From: Tepidimonas sp. | GTDB taxonomy: Bacteria > Pseudomonadota > Gammaproteobacteria > Burkholderiales > Burkholderiaceae_C | Length of the DNA stretch: 35,157 nt | Assembly: GCF_029335975.1 (NCBI RefSeq) | Contig: NZ_JARJMT020000129.1 | Coordinates: 1-35,157 of the forward strand | Direction: 5' to 3' | Part shown: positions 28,701 through 35,157 of the stretch, in pieces | Layout: every line of letters begins with the position of its first letter | How positions within the stretch are numbered: position 1 is the stretch's first letter | Translations under genes and position numbers: made by a program | The notes under the pieces: generated by a model | What the model was told of the DNA's origin: nothing | Seen by the model: the letters and a program-made list of their open reading frames with translations, nothing else | Databases searched by the model: none

Positions 28701-29636
28701 TCACACCAGGGTCAGCCAGTGGGCATAGTTGGGGTTGCGGCCGTTGACGATGTCGAAGAAGGCGCTTTGGACGCGCTCGGTGATCGGACCGCGCTGGCCC
28801 TCGCCAATTTGGATGCGGTCGAGTTCGCGGATCGGCGTGACCTCGGCGGCGGTGCCAGTGAAGAAGGCCTCGTCGGCAATGTACACCTCATCGCGCGTGA
28901 TGCGCTTTTGCACCACTTCCAGGCCCAGATCTTTGGCGATGTGCAGCACGGTGTTGCGCGTAATGCCGTTGAGCGCTCCAGCCGACAGGTCTGGTGTGTA
29001 GAGGACACCGCTCCTGACGATGAAGAGGTTTTCGCCAGCGCCTTCGGAGACGAAGCCCGCCGGGTCGAGCAGCAGCGCCTCGTCGTAGCCGTCGTCGGTG
29101 GCTTCCATGTGGGCCAGAATGGAGTTGGTGTAGTTGGACACCGCCTTGGCCTGCGTCATGGTGATGTTGACATGGTGGCGCGCGTAGCTGGAGGTCTTGA
29201 CGCGGATGCCGCGCTTCATGCCTTCTTCGCCCAGGTAGGCGCCCCAAGCCCATGCCGCCACCATCAGGTGCACACGGTTGCCCTTGGGGCTGACACCGAG
29301 TTTTTCCGATCCAATCCAGGTCAGCGGGCGGATATAGCCGCTGTCCAGCCCGTTGGCGCGGATGACGGCGCGCTGCGCTTCGTTGACCTCTTGCACGCTG
29401 AAGGGGATCTTCATGCGCAGAATCTTGGCGCTGTTGAACAGTCGCTCGGTGTGCTCCTGCAGGCGGAAGATCGCCGTGCCGCGCTCGGTTTTGTAGGCGC
29501 GCACGCCCTCGAATGCGCCGCAGCCGTAGTGCAGCGTATGCGTCAGCACGTGCACCTTGGCGTCGCGCCAGTCGACGAGTTCGCCGTCCATCCAGATCTT
29601 GCCGTCGCGGTCGTGCAGCGGGAGGGGTGTCGCCAT
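28701..29636 (-). CDS. ilvE: Branched-chain amino acid aminotransferase
   Basis: IlvE carries out the last step of Leu, Ile and Val synthesis using PLP. The 311-residue protein from ATG 29636 (AAAGGA upstream) shows KIWMDGELVDW, HTLHYGCGAFEGVRAY (fold-type IV start), IRPLTW, Lys164 in MTQAKAVSNYTNS (forms the Schiff base), GAGENLFIV, and FFTGTAAEVTPI. The frame is open another 51 codons upstream, including ATG 29714, but the ribosome binding site and a possible promoter downstream of that ATG favour the shorter form. The zinc-finger gene follows 6 bases later. Confidence 0.96.
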   Translation of the reverse strand: MATPLPLHDRDGKIWMDGELVDWRDAKVHVLTHTLHYGCGAFEGVRAYKTERGTAIFRLQEHTERLFNSAKILRMKIPFSVQEVNEAQRAVIRANGLDSGYIRPLTWIGSEKLGVSPKGNRVHLMVAAWAWGAYLGEEGMKRGIRVKTSSYARHHVNITMTQAKAVSNYTNSILAHMEATDDGYDEALLLDPAGFVSEGAGENLFIVRSGVLYTPDLSAGALNGITRNTVLHIAKDLGLEVVQKRITRDEVYIADEAFFTGTAAEVTPIRELDRIQIGEGQRGPITERVQSAFFDIVNGRNPNYAHWLTLV

Positions 29637-29740: not shown

Positions 29741-29838
29741 TCCCCGATACAGCCCGATTCGATAGGCCCGCTGTCGGCGCTGGCGCCATGCCACGGCAGG
29801 CCGTGGGCCGATCGGTTGAAAAGCGGGCGATTTCCCCC

Positions 29839-29865
29839 TAAAGTCCGACTCAAGTTGGTCGATAA
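29839..29865 (+). promoter_or_regulatory. Sigma-28 (FliA) type promoter
   Basis: TAAA (29839-29842) and GTCGATAA (29858-29865) are exactly 15 bases apart. The consensus is TAAA-N15-GCCGATAA, so 11 of 12 key bases match. Transcription would start about seven bases after the -10 box, near 29872, leaving a leader of about 49 bases before the ATG at 29921. Confidence 0.8.
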
Positions 29866-29920
29866 CTGGGATGAGCGCGGGGAATCTGGCCCTTGCGCAC
29901 TGACGAGTTGGGGTTTCGCC

Positions 29921-30676
29921 ATGTTGACCATTTCATCGATTGCCGTGGCACCGGCGCCGCAATCGACGCCGACAGTGCGGGCCCAGCCGGTAACCCCGGC
30001 GCGGGCCAGCAACGCCGTTGCCCGTGAAAATGGCTCTGGTGCCGTCGTGGCGCCGCAGGGCGAGGCTGGGCGCGCGCAGGCGCAGCCTGCCCCGCCGACT
30101 CTGTCGCCCGTCACCCCGGCGCAAGAAGGCCAGCGCGTCGACGGTTTCGCCAACGGGGCCGCGCCCGAGCGGTCTGGACTGCCGCTGCCGGTGGCGGGGC
30201 GCGAGGACCGCCGCGCTGAGGATGCACAGGCAAGGACCAACCCGACAGAGGCACAGACCCGGTTGGCCGAGCGGGACAAGCGGGCACGCGAGGCTCGGGA
30301 TGCGCAAGAAGCAGAAGCGCGGCGTCGCGCGCAAGCCCAGACCAGCCCTGGGCGCGAGCAGGACGCTGGCGCGCGTTCGGGCCAGGCGGAGTTTCCCAAA
30401 GTCAAAAACCCCGTGCTGGAGGCCATGGACGCTCAGATCAAAGATCTGTTGCCCAATATGTGGAAGGCCAGCCGAGCGGCCGTGGACATGATGATTGGAG
30501 AGGAGGCCATGCAAGCCGCCCAAGAGCGCGCCCAGCGGTTGGAGGAGTTGCAGACCCGACTCAACACCCGGCCGCTGGCCAACCTGCCGTCCAACGACGC
30601 GGCACAAAATTACATCACGGCTGCCGACAGTGGCAAGCGGCCGAAGCCCGGGGGGCAAATCGACCAACTGGCTTGA
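29921..30676 (+). CDS. Unrecognised protein with sigma-28 promoter, convergent to cheB
   Basis: The 251-residue protein from ATG 29921 matches no family I know. Residues 1-90 are rich in Pro, Ala and Val and look disordered. Residues 90-150 are highly charged (many Arg, Glu, Gln, Ala) and likely helical. The C-terminal 100 residues look folded: FPKVKNPVLEAMDAQIKDL, then WKASRAAVDMMIGEEAMQ and a helix ending in RLNTRPLANLP. No signal peptide, membrane segment or cysteine-rich motif is visible. The shape (disordered front, helical end) is like flagellar chaperones, hook-length or secreted flagellar proteins, but no specific relation can be claimed. The sigma-28 type promoter and the chemotaxis genes 23 bp downstream suggest a late flagellar/chemotaxis gene. 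Only a weak Shine-Dalgarno sequence precedes the ATG. Confidence 0.75.
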   Translation: MLTISSIAVAPAPQSTPTVRAQPVTPARASNAVARENGSGAVVAPQGEAGRAQAQPAPPTLSPVTPAQEGQRVDGFANGAAPERSGLPLPVAGREDRRAEDAQARTNPTEAQTRLAERDKRAREARDAQEAEARRRAQAQTSPGREQDAGARSGQAEFPKVKNPVLEAMDAQIKDLLPNMWKASRAAVDMMIGEEAMQAAQERAQRLEELQTRLNTRPLANLPSNDAAQNYITAADSGKRPKPGGQIDQLA

Positions 30677-30699: not shown

Positions 30700-31815
30700 T
30701 CAGACACGGTGCCGCACGCCTGAGGTGGCCACGCGTTCCATGATGGCCCGCGCAATCTGCTTGAGCGGCAGCACATCGTGCACGGCGCCAGCCTGAATCG
30801 CCATTTTGGGCATGCCAAAAACCACACAGCTTGCCTCGTCTTGGGCGATGTTGTATGCCCCGGCGTCGCGCATTTCTTTCATGGCTTGGGCGCCATCGCC
30901 ACCCATGCCGGTCAGCATCACCCCGATGGCGTTGGGCCCCAAGACCCGTGCACAAGAACGAAACAGCACCTCCACCGACGGTTTGTGGCGGTTGACTGGC
31001 GGTGAGTCATCCACCACGGCCACATAGTTGGCACCGCTGCGCGCGATCGAGAACTGCTTGCCGCCTGGTGCGATGTAGGCGTGGCCAGGCAGAATGCGCT
31101 CTCCGTCGCGCGCTTCAGCCACCCGAATGCGGCACAGAGAATCCAGCCGTGCTGCGAAACTGGCAGTAAAGCCTGGCGGCATGTGCTGGGTGATGACCAC
31201 TGCCGGCGCATCGGGCGGCAGTTCGACCAAGATCTCTTTGATGGCCTCGGTGCCCCCGGTGGAAGCGCCGATGCAGATGACTTTCTCGGTCGACAGTCGC
31301 AGCAGACCCGTGCCCAAAGCGGTCCCCGTCCGGGTGCTGGATACCGTGGTCGCAGGTGGCGTCGTGGCTGCGGCCGCAGAGGAAACAGGTGCTGCGGTCA
31401 GACGCCGCACATGGGCTTTGGCAGCGATGCGGATTTTGTCGACGATGTCGTCAGCCAGCTCCTGCAGTCCGGCGCTCACACCGATGCGCGGCTTGGCGAC
31501 GAAGTCCACCGCGCCCAGTTCCAGGGCTTTGAGTGTCGTCTCGGCGCCTTGCTCGGTCAGCGTCGAGACCATCACCACCGGAGTGGGGCGCAGCCGCATC
31601 AGGCGCGAGAGGAACTCCAGCCCGTCCATTTTGGGCATCTCGACGTCCAGCGTGATGACATCCGGGTTGCGCTCGCGGATGATTTCGCGCGCCTGCAGCG
31701 GGTCGGCGGCCGTGCCGACGCAGGTCATGTCCGGTTGTTGATTGATGATCTGGGTCAACAGACTGCGCACCAGCGCCGAGTCGTCGACCACCACCACTTT
31801 GATTTTTGAGGTCAT
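30700..31815 (-). CDS. cheB: Chemotaxis protein-glutamate methylesterase/deamidase CheB
   Basis: CheB removes methyl groups from chemoreceptors and is activated by CheA. The 371-residue protein from ATG 31815 has a receiver domain with VVDDSALVR (Asp11/Asp12) and phosphoacceptor Asp57 in [10 protein letters not shown], then a Thr/Ala-rich linker (about 140-172), and the esterase domain with Ser185 in GASTGGTEA, His211 in QHMPPGF and Asp307 in GMGGDGA, the catalytic triad. An upstream in-frame TTG at 31821 is unlikely. It is the last gene of the cheA-cheR-cheD-cheB run, 15 bp after cheD. Confidence 0.97.
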
Positions 31816-31830
31816 GCCCAATACACAGTG

Positions 31831-32466
31831 TCAAAACAGGTCCACGGTTCCACCTGCGTTCGCCTGCGCCAGACGGGTCGCCGTACCTTGGCGCTCCTGG
31901 GTCTCCAGCGTCTCTGGGTGTGCATGCGCCAACCGTTTGACCATGGCCTTGCCCGTGACCGGAAAAAACACCACTTTGCGCGGATAGATATCCATCACAT
32001 CCTTGGATACCACCGGAATCCGTTCGGTGGCCAGGTAATCCAGCACAAATTGGGTGTTGCGTTCCCCCACGTTCATGCTGGTCATGCCCGAGATGACGGC
32101 TCCGCCGCCAAAGACCTTGGCTTGCATGTACTCGCGCGACGAACCGCGCTTGATCAGCTCGTTGATCAGCAGTTCCATGGCATACGACCCGTACCGGCCC
32201 GAGGTATCGGCCCCGCCCTCGGGCAGCATGAAGTGGTTCATGCCACCGATACGCAAGCGCGAATCCCAGATACACGCCGCAATACACGAGCCCAGCACCG
32301 TCATGATGAGCAAATCCTCGTCGCTGACGAAATACTCGCCGGGCAGCACCTTCACCGCCGCATATTTGAAATGCTGGTCGAAAAAGAAAAACGATGCCTC
32401 CCCCGGTTTGCGCGGGCGTTCTTTGAGCTGTTGCACATGCATGGGGGTGCGCACCAAGGGCATCAT
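31831..32466 (-). CDS. cheD: Chemoreceptor glutamine deamidase CheD
   Basis: CheD deamidates glutamines of chemoreceptors. The 211-residue protein has Cys61 in TVLGSCIAACIWD (nucleophile) and His78 in GGMNHFMLP, then GRYGSYAMELLINEL, KVFGGGAVI and NVGERN, all standard. The start codon overlaps the cheR stop (ATGA), so translation is coupled; ATG 32463 directly after is an alternative. The last 40 residues, ending in GGTVDLF, extend past the usual core. Betaproteobacteria commonly keep cheD between cheR and cheB. Confidence 0.96.
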   Translation of the reverse strand: MMPLVRTPMHVQQLKERPRKPGEASFFFFDQHFKYAAVKVLPGEYFVSDEDLLIMTVLGSCIAACIWDSRLRIGGMNHFMLPEGGADTSGRYGSYAMELLINELIKRGSSREYMQAKVFGGGAVISGMTSMNVGERNTQFVLDYLATERIPVVSKDVMDIYPRKVVFFPVTGKAMVKRLAHAHPETLETQERQGTATRLAQANAGGTVDLF

Positions 32467-33302
32467 AGTTTTTCGTAGATGGTCTTGCCGCGCAGCCGAA
32501 ACAGGTCGCGTGCGTCGCTGAAGTTCTCGGCATGCCCGACGAACAGGGTGCCATGGGGGCGCAAAAGGCGGTGCAGGCGGCCGAGCACCTGCCGCTGTGT
32601 GGCATGGTCGAAATAAATCATGACGTTGCGGCAGAAGATCACATCGAACTCTTCGCGCAAGGGCCAGACCTCATCGACCAGGTTGAGCGTAAAGAATTGC
32701 AGATGCTTTTGCAGCTCCGGCTTGACACGGGCCAGCCCTTCGTTGGCACCCTTGCCGCGCAGAAAGTATCGGCGCAACTGCTCGGGCGTGACGGAGCGCA
32801 ACTGATCCAGCTTGTACACACCGCGCTGGGCGGTTTGCAGCACCCGGGTGTCGATGTCGCTGGCCCAGATGCGAAACGCCCCTTGCAGACCCAGCACATC
32901 GGCCATCGTGATGGCGATGGAGTACGGCTCCTCGCCCGTCGAAGCCGCGCTGCACCAAATCTTCCAGTCCCGCTGGGACGCCGACTCCCGCACCAGGCGA
33001 GCCAGCTCCACGAAGTGGTGATTTTCACGAAAAAACGAGGTCAGATTGGTGGTCAGCGCGTTGACGAATTCCTGCCATTCGGCCGCATCCTGGCTGGACT
33101 CCAACCAGTCCAGATAGGCCCGAAAGCTGTCGTGCCCAGTCTCGCGCAGGCGACGCGAGATGCGGCTGTACACCATGGCCTGCTTGCCCTCGTGCAGGCT
33201 GATACCGGCGTGCCGGTAGATGAGCTGTCGGATGCGGTCGAAATCCGCCACCGTCCACGCGAATTCACGGGATTGCAAGGCCGCGGCGGCGTCGCGCATC
33301 AT
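32463..33302 (-). CDS. cheR: Chemotaxis protein methyltransferase CheR
   Basis: CheR methylates receptor glutamates with S-adenosylmethionine. The 279-residue protein has the helical N-terminal domain (FDRIRQLIYRHAGISL, then SRISRRLRE) and the methyltransferase core with TNLTSFFREN, CSAASTGEEPYSIA (SAM-binding loop), ASDIDTRVL, and FDVIFCRNVMIYFD. The final HAENFSDARDLFRL is normal. ATG 33302 or ATG 33299 may be used. It lies 15 bp after cheA. Confidence 0.97.
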   Translation of the reverse strand: MMRDAAAALQSREFAWTVADFDRIRQLIYRHAGISLHEGKQAMVYSRISRRLRETGHDSFRAYLDWLESSQDAAEWQEFVNALTTNLTSFFRENHHFVELARLVRESASQRDWKIWCSAASTGEEPYSIAITMADVLGLQGAFRIWASDIDTRVLQTAQRGVYKLDQLRSVTPEQLRRYFLRGKGANEGLARVKPELQKHLQFFTLNLVDEVWPLREEFDVIFCRNVMIYFDHATQRQVLGRLHRLLRPHGTLFVGHAENFSDARDLFRLRGKTIYEKL

Positions 33303-33317
33303 CGCAAACGGCGTAGA

Positions 33318-35157
33318 TTACTGGCGCGCCCGCCGCACCAAGGCGGAAATATCCAGAATCAGCGAGACGCTGCCGTCGCCCAGGATGGTGGCTCCCGAGA
33401 CATTGGGGACCTTCTTGTAGTTGGCTTCGAGGTTTTTGATCACCACCTGCTGCTGTCCCAGCAATTCGTCGACCACCAGTGCCACGCGCGATCCGTCGGA
33501 CTCCACCACGACCATGATGCTGTTGGCGGATGCGTCCGTCGCCGGCCGTGGCACTTGGAACAGACGTTCCAGCTCGATGACCGGCATGTATTCCTCGCGC
33601 ACCTTGACGAGCTGGGCGCTTTGGGCCACGGTGTTGATATCGCTGGCCTGGACCTGAAAGGACTCGACCACCGAGGACAGCGGCAAGATGTAGACCTCGT
33701 CGCCCACGCGCACGGTCATGCCGTCCATGATCGCGAGCGTCAGGGGCAGACGCACCTTGACGCTCATGCCATAGCCTTCGGCCGAGTCGATCTCCACCGA
33801 ACCGCCCAGCGAGGCGATGTTTTTCTTGACCACGTCCATACCGACGCCGCGGCCAGAGACGTCGGTGACCACATCGGCCGTAGAAAAACCCGGAGCAAAG
33901 ATCAATTGCCACACTTCGGCATCGCTCATGTCGTCGGAGCAGGGCACGCCTTTCTCCCGCGCCTTGCGCAGCAGCTTGTCTCGCGACAAGCCACGACCGT
34001 CGTCACGCACCTCGATCAGGATCGAGCCCCCCTGGTGGGCCGCCGAGAGGGTGATCGTGCCGACTTCCGGCTTGCCCTTGGCGATGCGCTCCTGCGGCAG
34101 CTCGATGCCATGGTCGCAGCTGTTGCGTATCAGATGCGTCAGCGGATCGGTGATCTTCTCGATCAGGCCCTTGTCGAGCTCAGTCGCCTCGCCGTGTGTC
34201 ACCAATTCGACCTTCTTGCCCAGCTTGCTGGCCAGGTCGCGCAGCATGCGCGGGAAGCGGCTGAACACCACCGACATGGGGATCATGCGGATCGACATGA
34301 CCGACTCCTGCAAGTCGCGCGTGTTGCGCTCCAAGTCGGCCAGACCGGTGAGCAGCTGCTGATGCAAGGTTGCATCCAGGTCACGACTGTACTGCGCCAG
34401 CATGGCTTGGGTGATGACGAGCTCGCCTACTTGGTTGATGAGCTGGTCGATCTTGCTGACGGATACGCGCAGCGTCGTCGTCTCCAATTGGGCGCTGGCC
34501 GCGTTGCGGGCGGCCTTGGCGGTTTCGCGTGCGCGGGCATCCGCGCTGAGTGCGGGCGACGCGGCCGTCCCCCCCGGGGACAGGACCGAGCCCTGCAGGG
34601 CTGCCTCGGCTTGCAGGGCGGCGGCGTGCTCCGCGGGTGTCACCGGATTGCCCGGCGCACCAGAAAACAAACCATAGCCGTGCACCTCGTCGGGGGCTGG
34701 AATCGGGGCGCCGCTGGCATCCGGTCGCGTGCTGGCGACTGGACTGCCCGGAGCGCCGGCGAACAGGCCGTAGCCTTCCTCAATCACTTCACGGCTGTGT
34801 TCGGGGGCGGCGTTGTCTGCAGCGGTCGTGGTGACCGACGCCGCTGCCGCTGCCCCGGGCAGCAGGGCGACTTGATCACGGGCGACATGGAAGGCAAACA
34901 GGTCCAGCAGCTCTGCGTCGCTGCTGCTGGTGTCGATCTCGTAAATGCGGAAATTGCCCTCGTCGCGCTCTGCCGTGATGGTGCCCAGGCCGGCAATGTC
35001 GCGAAACAATTCCTTGATGGGGTCAGCCAGATCCAAGCGGCTCAGCGGGCCAATGCGGGCTTGCAGGTGCCGTGGTGCCCCGGCGGGTGATGGCGCGGGC
35101 ATGCCGCCCGGCGTGCTGCGCGCCCCGGGGTCGGCCGCCGCCGGTGGCGCAGGGGGG
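33318..35157 (-). CDS. cheA: Chemotaxis histidine kinase CheA (N-terminus outside window)
   Basis: About 612 residues are visible; the frame is still open at the right edge (PPAPPAAADPG...), so the His-phosphotransfer domain lies outside and ATG 35102 is not the true start. Parts in order: a module with IKELFRDIAGLGTI and ELLDLFAFHVARDQVAL (regulator-docking type), a long linker with two copies of a GYGLF-GAPG motif (34641-34775), the dimerisation domain (RVSVSKIDQLINQVGELVI), the kinase domain with LIRNSCDHGIE (N-box), VRDDGRGL (G1), FAPGFSTA and SGRGVGMDVVK (G2), and the CheW-like C-terminal domain ending in ISALVRRARQ. All catalytic boxes are intact. cheR follows 15 bp later; no cheW or receptor gene lies between. 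Confidence 0.96.
   Translation of the reverse strand, partial: PPAPPAAADPGARSTPGGMPAPSPAGAPRHLQARIGPLSRLDLADPIKELFRDIAGLGTITAERDEGNFRIYEIDTSSSDAELLDLFAFHVARDQVALLPGAAAAASVTTTAADNAAPEHSREVIEEGYGLFAGAPGSPVASTRPDASGAPIPAPDEVHGYGLFSGAPGNPVTPAEHAAALQAEAALQGSVLSPGGTAASPALSADARARETAKAARNAASAQLETTTLRVSVSKIDQLINQVGELVITQAMLAQYSRDLDATLHQQLLTGLADLERNTRDLQESVMSIRMIPMSVVFSRFPRMLRDLASKLGKKVELVTHGEATELDKGLIEKITDPLTHLIRNSCDHGIELPQERIAKGKPEVGTITLSAAHQGGSILIEVRDDGRGLSRDKLLRKAREKGVPCSDDMSDAEVWQLIFAPGFSTADVVTDVSGRGVGMDVVKKNIASLGGSVEIDSAEGYGMSVKVRLPLTLAIMDGMTVRVGDEVYILPLSSVVESFQVQASDINTVAQSAQLVKVREEYMPVIELERLFQVPRPATDASANSIMVVVESDGSRVALVVDELLGQQQVVIKNLEANYKKVPNVSGATILGDGSVSLILDISALVRRARQ
34641..34679 (-). repeat. 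CheA linker motif copy 2 (GYGLFSGAPGNPV)
   Basis: Thirteen residues match the copy at 34737-34775 at 11 places. The DNA differs at many third positions, so the similarity is kept at protein level. Confidence 0.85.
34737..34775 (-). repeat. CheA linker motif copy 1 (GYGLFAGAPGSPV)
   Basis: First of two copies, 96 bp (32 codons) from the other. Both follow an acidic or polar residue pair and lie in otherwise disordered Pro/Ala-rich sequence. Confidence 0.85.

Follow-up and report, generated by a model that had tools for sequence, protein, structure and literature searches.

What does a protein that fits no family do behind an apparent flagellar promoter, its gene pointing at a set of chemotaxis genes? 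The question is raised by a 251-residue protein encoded in a 35,157-nucleotide stretch of Tepidimonas sp. DNA, the whole of which we call the window and whose unplaced ORF we call the window gene (Table 1). The initial annotation had proposed, as its central idea, that this is an undescribed protein of the FliA (sigma-28) regulon, and the promoter of the gene and the co-occurrence of its family with FliA give that idea good support, as far as sequence can carry it. In our view the product is probably a soluble accessory protein, timed by FliA, that docks through a helix on some conserved protein of the flagellum or of chemotaxis.

The window gene and its FliA-type site

The window gene converges on cheB, their stop codons (30676 and 30700) lying 23 bp apart, the gap given in the initial annotation, and no terminator-like site is listed in those 23 bp. 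Its start codon is backed by the beginning MLT[IL]SSI, which is common to all 11 same-genus sequences that include the N-terminus. The proposed sigma-28 promoter, TAAA-N15-GTCGATAA, is present as first described and recurs across the family. When TAAA-N15-GCCGATAA was sought with at most two mismatches, the site of the window gene was the sole match in the 35-kb window (one mismatch). Because shuffled sequence gives a mean of 0.34 such matches, with at least one in 30 of 100 shuffles, the match alone is only suggestive at the scale of the window; what sets the site above chance is its conservation, which holds for 10 of the 11 same-genus upstream regions and for 65 of 68 family members.

In its own assembly (2.15 Mb, 200 contigs, 91% complete) the pattern TAAA-N14..16-GYCGATAA occurs exactly twice, and its reversed-pattern control not at all. 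The second exact copy precedes a gene that we take to be flgM; it lies downstream of flgA with fliA nearby, these names being given by recognition. With two mismatches allowed, the same assembly yielded 8 matches, both exact sites included, versus 14 in the reversed controls, and therefore nothing but the exact pair rises above background; the weak matches, equally frequent in the reversed controls, were discarded.

The one same-genus region without the promoter is L007 (G007:C63:1-154, the same place as L044), in Tepidimonas thermarum. Because the gene starts 154 bp from a contig end there, an assembly break and a true loss of the promoter look alike.

Table 1. Features of the window gene and its surroundings, in window coordinates
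Feature	Position	Strand	Basis or remark
ilvE-like aminotransferase, divergent neighbour, start presumed	28701..29636	-	named by recognition
Sigma-70-like TTGAAA-N17-TAAAGT	29816..29844	+	9/12 match; overlaps sigma-28 site
FliA (sigma-28)-type promoter	29839..29865	+	-35 TAAA 29839-29842, 15-bp spacer, -10 GTCGATAA 29858-29865
Leader, promoter to start codon	29866..29920	+	transcription start presumed
Window gene, 251-residue protein, family absent from Pfam/NCBIfam	29921..30676	+	ORF call, conservation, dN/dS
Conserved N-terminal motif MLTISSIAVAPAPQ	29921..29962	+	alignment; residues 1-36 median dN/dS 0.15
Fast-evolving charged linker, residues 93-157	30197..30391	+	median dN/dS 0.66; 97-141 predicted helical
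Conserved long helix, predicted residues 164-216	30410..30568	+	block pLDDT 66-83; strongest hydrophobic moment of protein
WKAS signature, residues 181-184	30461..30472	+	branch-A core alignment
cheB, convergent neighbour 23 bp away	30700..31815	-	named by recognition; synteny by tblastn
cheD	31831..32466	-	named by recognition; synteny by tblastn
cheR	32463..33302	-	named by recognition; synteny by tblastn
cheA-like ORF, start uncertain	33318..35102	-	named by recognition

One family with two branches

The gene is present in all 11 Tepidimonas genomes searched, its own and 10 others, whose copies are 53-88% identical to it, one of them split across two contigs. Its nearest named records are mostly from Tepidimonas, with one labelled Hydrogenophaga sp., and a single-sequence search of 49 genomes of other genera gave no match. 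A profile made from the same-genus set reaches Tepidicella and further genera. Over 399 genomes of the bacterial family, a 54-column profile of the branch-A core, the branch of the window gene, gave 64 matches at E 0.05, 25 of them strong, and many of the weak ones are a second, mostly shorter branch (branch B), which has the N-terminus MQLPPVDRSP..., the core PPxEPIYKQLLEFIQSMWRASGSAVE and the tail LTYSDPKVKRTGG. The two branches have a W-[KR]-A-S core in common; hhalign relates them with a probability of 94.1 and E 1.2e-7 over 35 columns, and a search with the branch-B profile recovers the window gene (E 4.3e-5) and gives matches in 103 of the 399 genomes at E 0.01. With the core found by profile in both directions, A and B belong, at the level of sequence, to a single family.

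At strict cut-offs, branch A is found in 25 of the 399 genomes, branch B in 93 and both in none, and by hand count the strict matches fall in 39 of the 141 genera of Tepidimonas' bacterial family. Strict here means E 1.3e-8 or better for branch A (25/64, the other 39 being weaker and many of them branch B) and E 1.2e-9 or better for branch B (93/103, the other 10 being 8 branch-A genes plus G011 and G101, which were omitted); the branch-A, branch-B and FliA searches are presumed, from their common handles, to cover the same 399 genomes. In 300 genomes drawn from the order, the branch-A core profile found nothing convincing outside this bacterial family. Three matches from beyond it (E 0.02-0.04) were set aside, one being an ABC transporter and two lacking the core motif.

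That no family could be named for the protein, as first stated, holds over Pfam, NCBIfam, PHROGs and PDB sequences: eight family proteins gave no score above a curated cut-off in Pfam and NCBIfam, three proteins gave one weak match (E 0.006) in PHROGs, to a family of unknown function, and the PDB sequences gave one chance-level match only, with nothing assignable in either of the last two. Nor was the family recognised in the literature searched, a search with most subscription journals outside its scope, and by undescribed we mean absent from that literature and from these libraries. One further ORF, L135 (G011:C18, start L135:1041), has a branch-B-style N-terminus (MQVPPTDRIAAFRPLGAEQLS) and TCAAGTTGGCTCAAGACCGGCCGATAA 91 bp upstream, with no recognisable WKAS core; it hints at more diverged members among the FliA genomes scored negative.

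Selection, predicted architecture and the likeness to FlgM

Among ten same-genus sequences the median pairwise dN/dS, taken over 40-44 usable of 45 pairs, is 0.15 for residues 1-36, 0.26 for 43-92, 0.66 for 93-157, 0.11 for 158-212 and 0.34 for the tail. Judged by these ratios, purifying selection acts on the N-terminus and the helix and more weakly on the linker, and the constraint is on the coding sequence. The W, A and S of WKAS and a following D are invariant in the 23-row branch-A core alignment.

An AlphaFold2 run with 14 sequences gave a weak model (mean pLDDT 58, pTM 0.21), with predicted helices at residues 97-106, 108-141, 164-216 and 226-236 and with no predicted secondary structure in the first 96 and last 15 residues. 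The initial annotation had described a disordered, charged N-terminal half and a compact helical C-terminus. Of this, the unstructured look of the first ~95 residues stands; the charged linker is predicted to be helical, and the conserved C-terminal part is predicted to be one long helix and not a compact unit. The strongest hydrophobic moment falls in the conserved helix, both in the window protein (0.53) and in one branch-B protein (0.56), and no membrane helix or signal peptide is obvious by eye. Because the helix holds invariant polar residues, docking on a protein would seem likelier than mere membrane contact.

FlgM, the anti-sigma-28 factor, is a small protein with a disordered N-terminus and a helical C-terminus, and flagellar export substrates have a charge-poor, S/T/P/A-rich N-terminus. 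The window protein could then be a checkpoint protein of the FlgM kind, made late and exported through the flagellar type III apparatus, its helix acting inside the cell until export. Its gene has the same type of site as flgM, its N-terminal motif is strongly constrained, its first 35 residues are charge-poor and S/T/P/A-rich in a way that would suit export, and the model pairs an unstructured N-terminus with the conserved C-terminal helix. We nevertheless hold this to be unlikely, since there is no profile similarity to FlgM and since flgM was found in its own genome and in 6 of 12 further stretches searched (not all 12 of them at fliA); with flgM present separately, the FlgM slot is filled in those genomes. 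Membership of the FlgM family itself was rejected on profile comparison (hhalign probability 0.2).

Co-occurrence with FliA and the genomic neighbourhood

A clear FliA is found in 115 of the 118 member genomes versus 161 of the 281 others (p 5e-19 by Fisher's test, with no correction for descent), where clear omits 39 of 315 matches, those at E 1e-74 or weaker. By genus and for any FliA match, a hand count from the listings gives 38/39 versus 71/102 (p about 1e-4). In genus g152, neither a FliA orthologue nor flagellin nor a family match was found in G381, while three congeners have both FliA and the gene. Another genome, G125, carries flagellins but in place of a clear FliA just a distant FliA-like protein (39% identity); it gave no family match, though four of its own congeners did.

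Two results of this survey count against the preferred reading. (i) The 161 clear-FliA genomes have no family match; in them the gene is dispensable, absent or diverged. (ii) G314 and G026 have the family gene and flagellins with no FliA orthologue (best E about 2.5e-7). The expectation that homologues should lie in FliA-bearing genomes thus holds for 115 of 118 and fails for these two, one of which, G314 (2 contigs, 100% complete), retains the sigma-28 site; the third member genome without a clear FliA, G073, is 74% complete. G314 and G026 (L133 and L134; flagellin loci L166, L169 and L179) have either lost FliA recently or use another sigma factor for late flagellar genes.

The neighbourhood differs between the branches. 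By tblastn, 27 of 30 branch-A loci have cheB as their convergent neighbour; of the other three, G371 has it about 2.9 kb off, and G311 and G147 have none within the 5.5-6 kb read. The gene cheB occurs in none of 34 branch-B stretches (5-20 kb), and that no flagellar genes were recognised near branch B in the stretches listed also counts against the preferred reading. Branch-B genes lie among varied genes, which at L054, L055 and L097 include what we take to be cyanophycin-synthetase-like ORFs. Adjacency to cheB and the che genes, which had suggested a chemotaxis role, is therefore not a general trait of the family, and that role is a hint at the level of branch A only. A search for cheB covered 21 genomes, 19 of them with no family match and the other two the doubtful G011 and G101; in the 1.5 kb past the 17 closest copies there was no convergent gene with core and site. 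A stray motif match lies beyond cheB at L205.

The FliA-regulon gene might act outside motility itself, for instance as a switch of surface attachment or growth state that is timed with swimming, and to such a role one could refer the varied non-flagellar ORFs around branch B in the stretches listed, the 161 clear-FliA genomes without a member and the two flagellin-bearing genomes that retain the gene with no FliA orthologue. We regard it as rather improbable, in view of the clear FliA in 115 of 118 member genomes, of G381, which with neither FliA nor flagellin has no match whereas its three congeners do, and of the adjacency to cheB at 27 of 30 branch-A loci.

Conservation of the promoter across the family

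Upstream DNA was scored for 68 members, 30 of branch A and 38 of branch B or B-like, the latter drawn from 36 of the 93 strict branch-B genomes and from G011 and G101. The best site reaches at least 9/12 in 59 of the 68, versus 15% of Markov-shuffled controls, and at least 10/12 in 42, versus 1.7%. The spacer is 15 bp in all 59 sites scoring at least 9/12, one of which (L007) is off position. In 65 of the 68 members, which are related and not independent, the best site with a 15-bp spacer is found 75-110 bp upstream of the ATG, and the distance from TAAA to ATG is 82 bp at the window gene and 79-106 bp over the 65 members counted. The homologues were to be checked for the same promoter, and these 65 have it; the exceptions are L031 and L097, with no recognisable site at the usual place, and L007, near its contig end. 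Of the refuting findings named in the initial annotation that sequence can show, homologues mainly in non-motile bacteria or with no conserved FliA promoter, the survey gave largely the opposite, these loci and the genomes G314 and G026 being the exceptions. A TAAA-N15-GCCGATAA-type promoter at a fixed upstream distance, one mark of a gene of the FliA regulon, is found both at the window gene and through the family. No variation is seen in the 65 members at the C before TAAA, a base outside the score, at the T, at the fourth-base A or at the CG of the -10, in the case of the CG partly by construction, since this set was picked by match and distance.

Many of the sites are individually weak (9/12 is reached in 15% of shuffled controls), which counts against the preferred reading, and the promoter argument rests on position and spacing. 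The site remains where a single-sequence search loses the protein; the promoter, more than the protein sequence, appears as the constant feature of the family. Many branch-B sites read TAAAT, TTAAT or TCAAT with GCCGTTA or GCCGTAA. In five branch-B genomes the flgM sites look more standard than the sites of the branch-B genes, and so do the better flagellin sites, many flagellins having no good site in the 300 bp scanned; that branch-B sites (TAAAT...GCCGTTA) are unlike the flgM and most flagellin sites of the same genomes again counts against the preferred reading. Upstream of one flagellin, L171 (G274:C13), stands TAAATAACCCGGCTTTTCTGCCGCTTA / TAAATAACCC...TCTGCCGCTTA, close to the site of the branch-B gene of G274. 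Taken together, these comparisons leave the promoter idea well supported.

The sigma-70-like match that overlaps the site (29816-29844) may be a rival or dual promoter or an A-rich upstream element. If it were the real promoter and the sigma-28 -10 coincidental, the gene would be a housekeeping one, for which the 9/12 match speaks, as does a TTGACA-like hexamer (at least 4/6) that stands at this position in 30 of 65 members, 19 of 28 in branch A but only 11 of 37 in branch B. With the CG of the -10 invariant in 65/65, partly by construction, and with a co-occurrence with FliA that a housekeeping gene would not predict, we think this very unlikely. Hardly credible is an antisense brake, in which FliA-driven read-through across the 23 bp would yield antisense RNA to cheB: the convergence on cheB at 27 of 30 branch-A loci and the gap with no listed terminator-like site would permit it, but the constraint is at the protein level (dN/dS) and branch B keeps core and site with no cheB in the 34 stretches checked.

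Discussion

Late (class 3) flagellar genes are switched on after completion of the hook, when export of FlgM frees FliA. The preferred reading makes the window gene a single-gene, FliA-dependent late transcription unit. The comparisons above establish, for sequence, the site with its conservation, the constraint on the coding region, the family and its co-occurrence with FliA, and FliA dependence of the gene is strongly implied. Its product would be soluble and extended, with an unstructured N-terminal third that begins with the conserved start motif, a charged linker and an amphipathic helix; the helix around W-[KR]-A-S would dock on a conserved flagellar or chemotaxis protein, and the protein would serve, in cells that are assembled and swimming, as a small tether or modulator. 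Where it is located, its docking and partner, and its effect on motility are what we infer from these features.

A bolder proposal, which we hold only tentatively, is that the family is a novel part of the flagellar checkpoint, the mature motor or the chemosensory complex, specific to this bacterial family. Such a part would be FliA-timed, partly disordered and possibly exported as FlgM is, with a WKAS helix that would bind and adjust a core flagellar protein. Few bacterial networks are as well mapped as flagellar regulation, yet a family present, at strict cut-offs, in 118 of the 399 genomes goes unnamed in the libraries searched. It offers an entry point to lineage-specific flagellar parts and is a candidate for a missing part of motility.

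Several known systems may be set beside it. The FliA promoters of E. coli mapped by ChIP-seq have, in the table of that study, the layout TAAA-N15-GCCGATAA, with entries such as tar (TAAAGTTTCCCCCCTCCTTGCCGATAAC) and flgMN (TAAAGATTACCCGTCCCTTGCCGATAAA) (PMC4183435). These two tabulated sites resemble those of the family, down to the spacer rich in C and T seen in branch B, although the predicted branch-B sites mostly have GCCGTTA or GCCGTAA instead of GCCGATA and TAAAT instead of TAAAG. The likeness to FlgM lies in the type of site, which the two genes share within one genome, and in a disordered N-terminus with a helical C-terminus, both as predicted for the window protein; the difference is that no profile similarity links the two and that FlgM is separately present. 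The window gene also recalls a FliA-dependent gene with no assigned role outside the core flagellar operons. This is flxA of E. coli, a gene of prophage origin that is not known to have a function. Its FliA dependence is given in the same table (PMC4183435). Unlike flxA, the Tepidimonas gene belongs to a family with strict matches in 39 of 141 genera.
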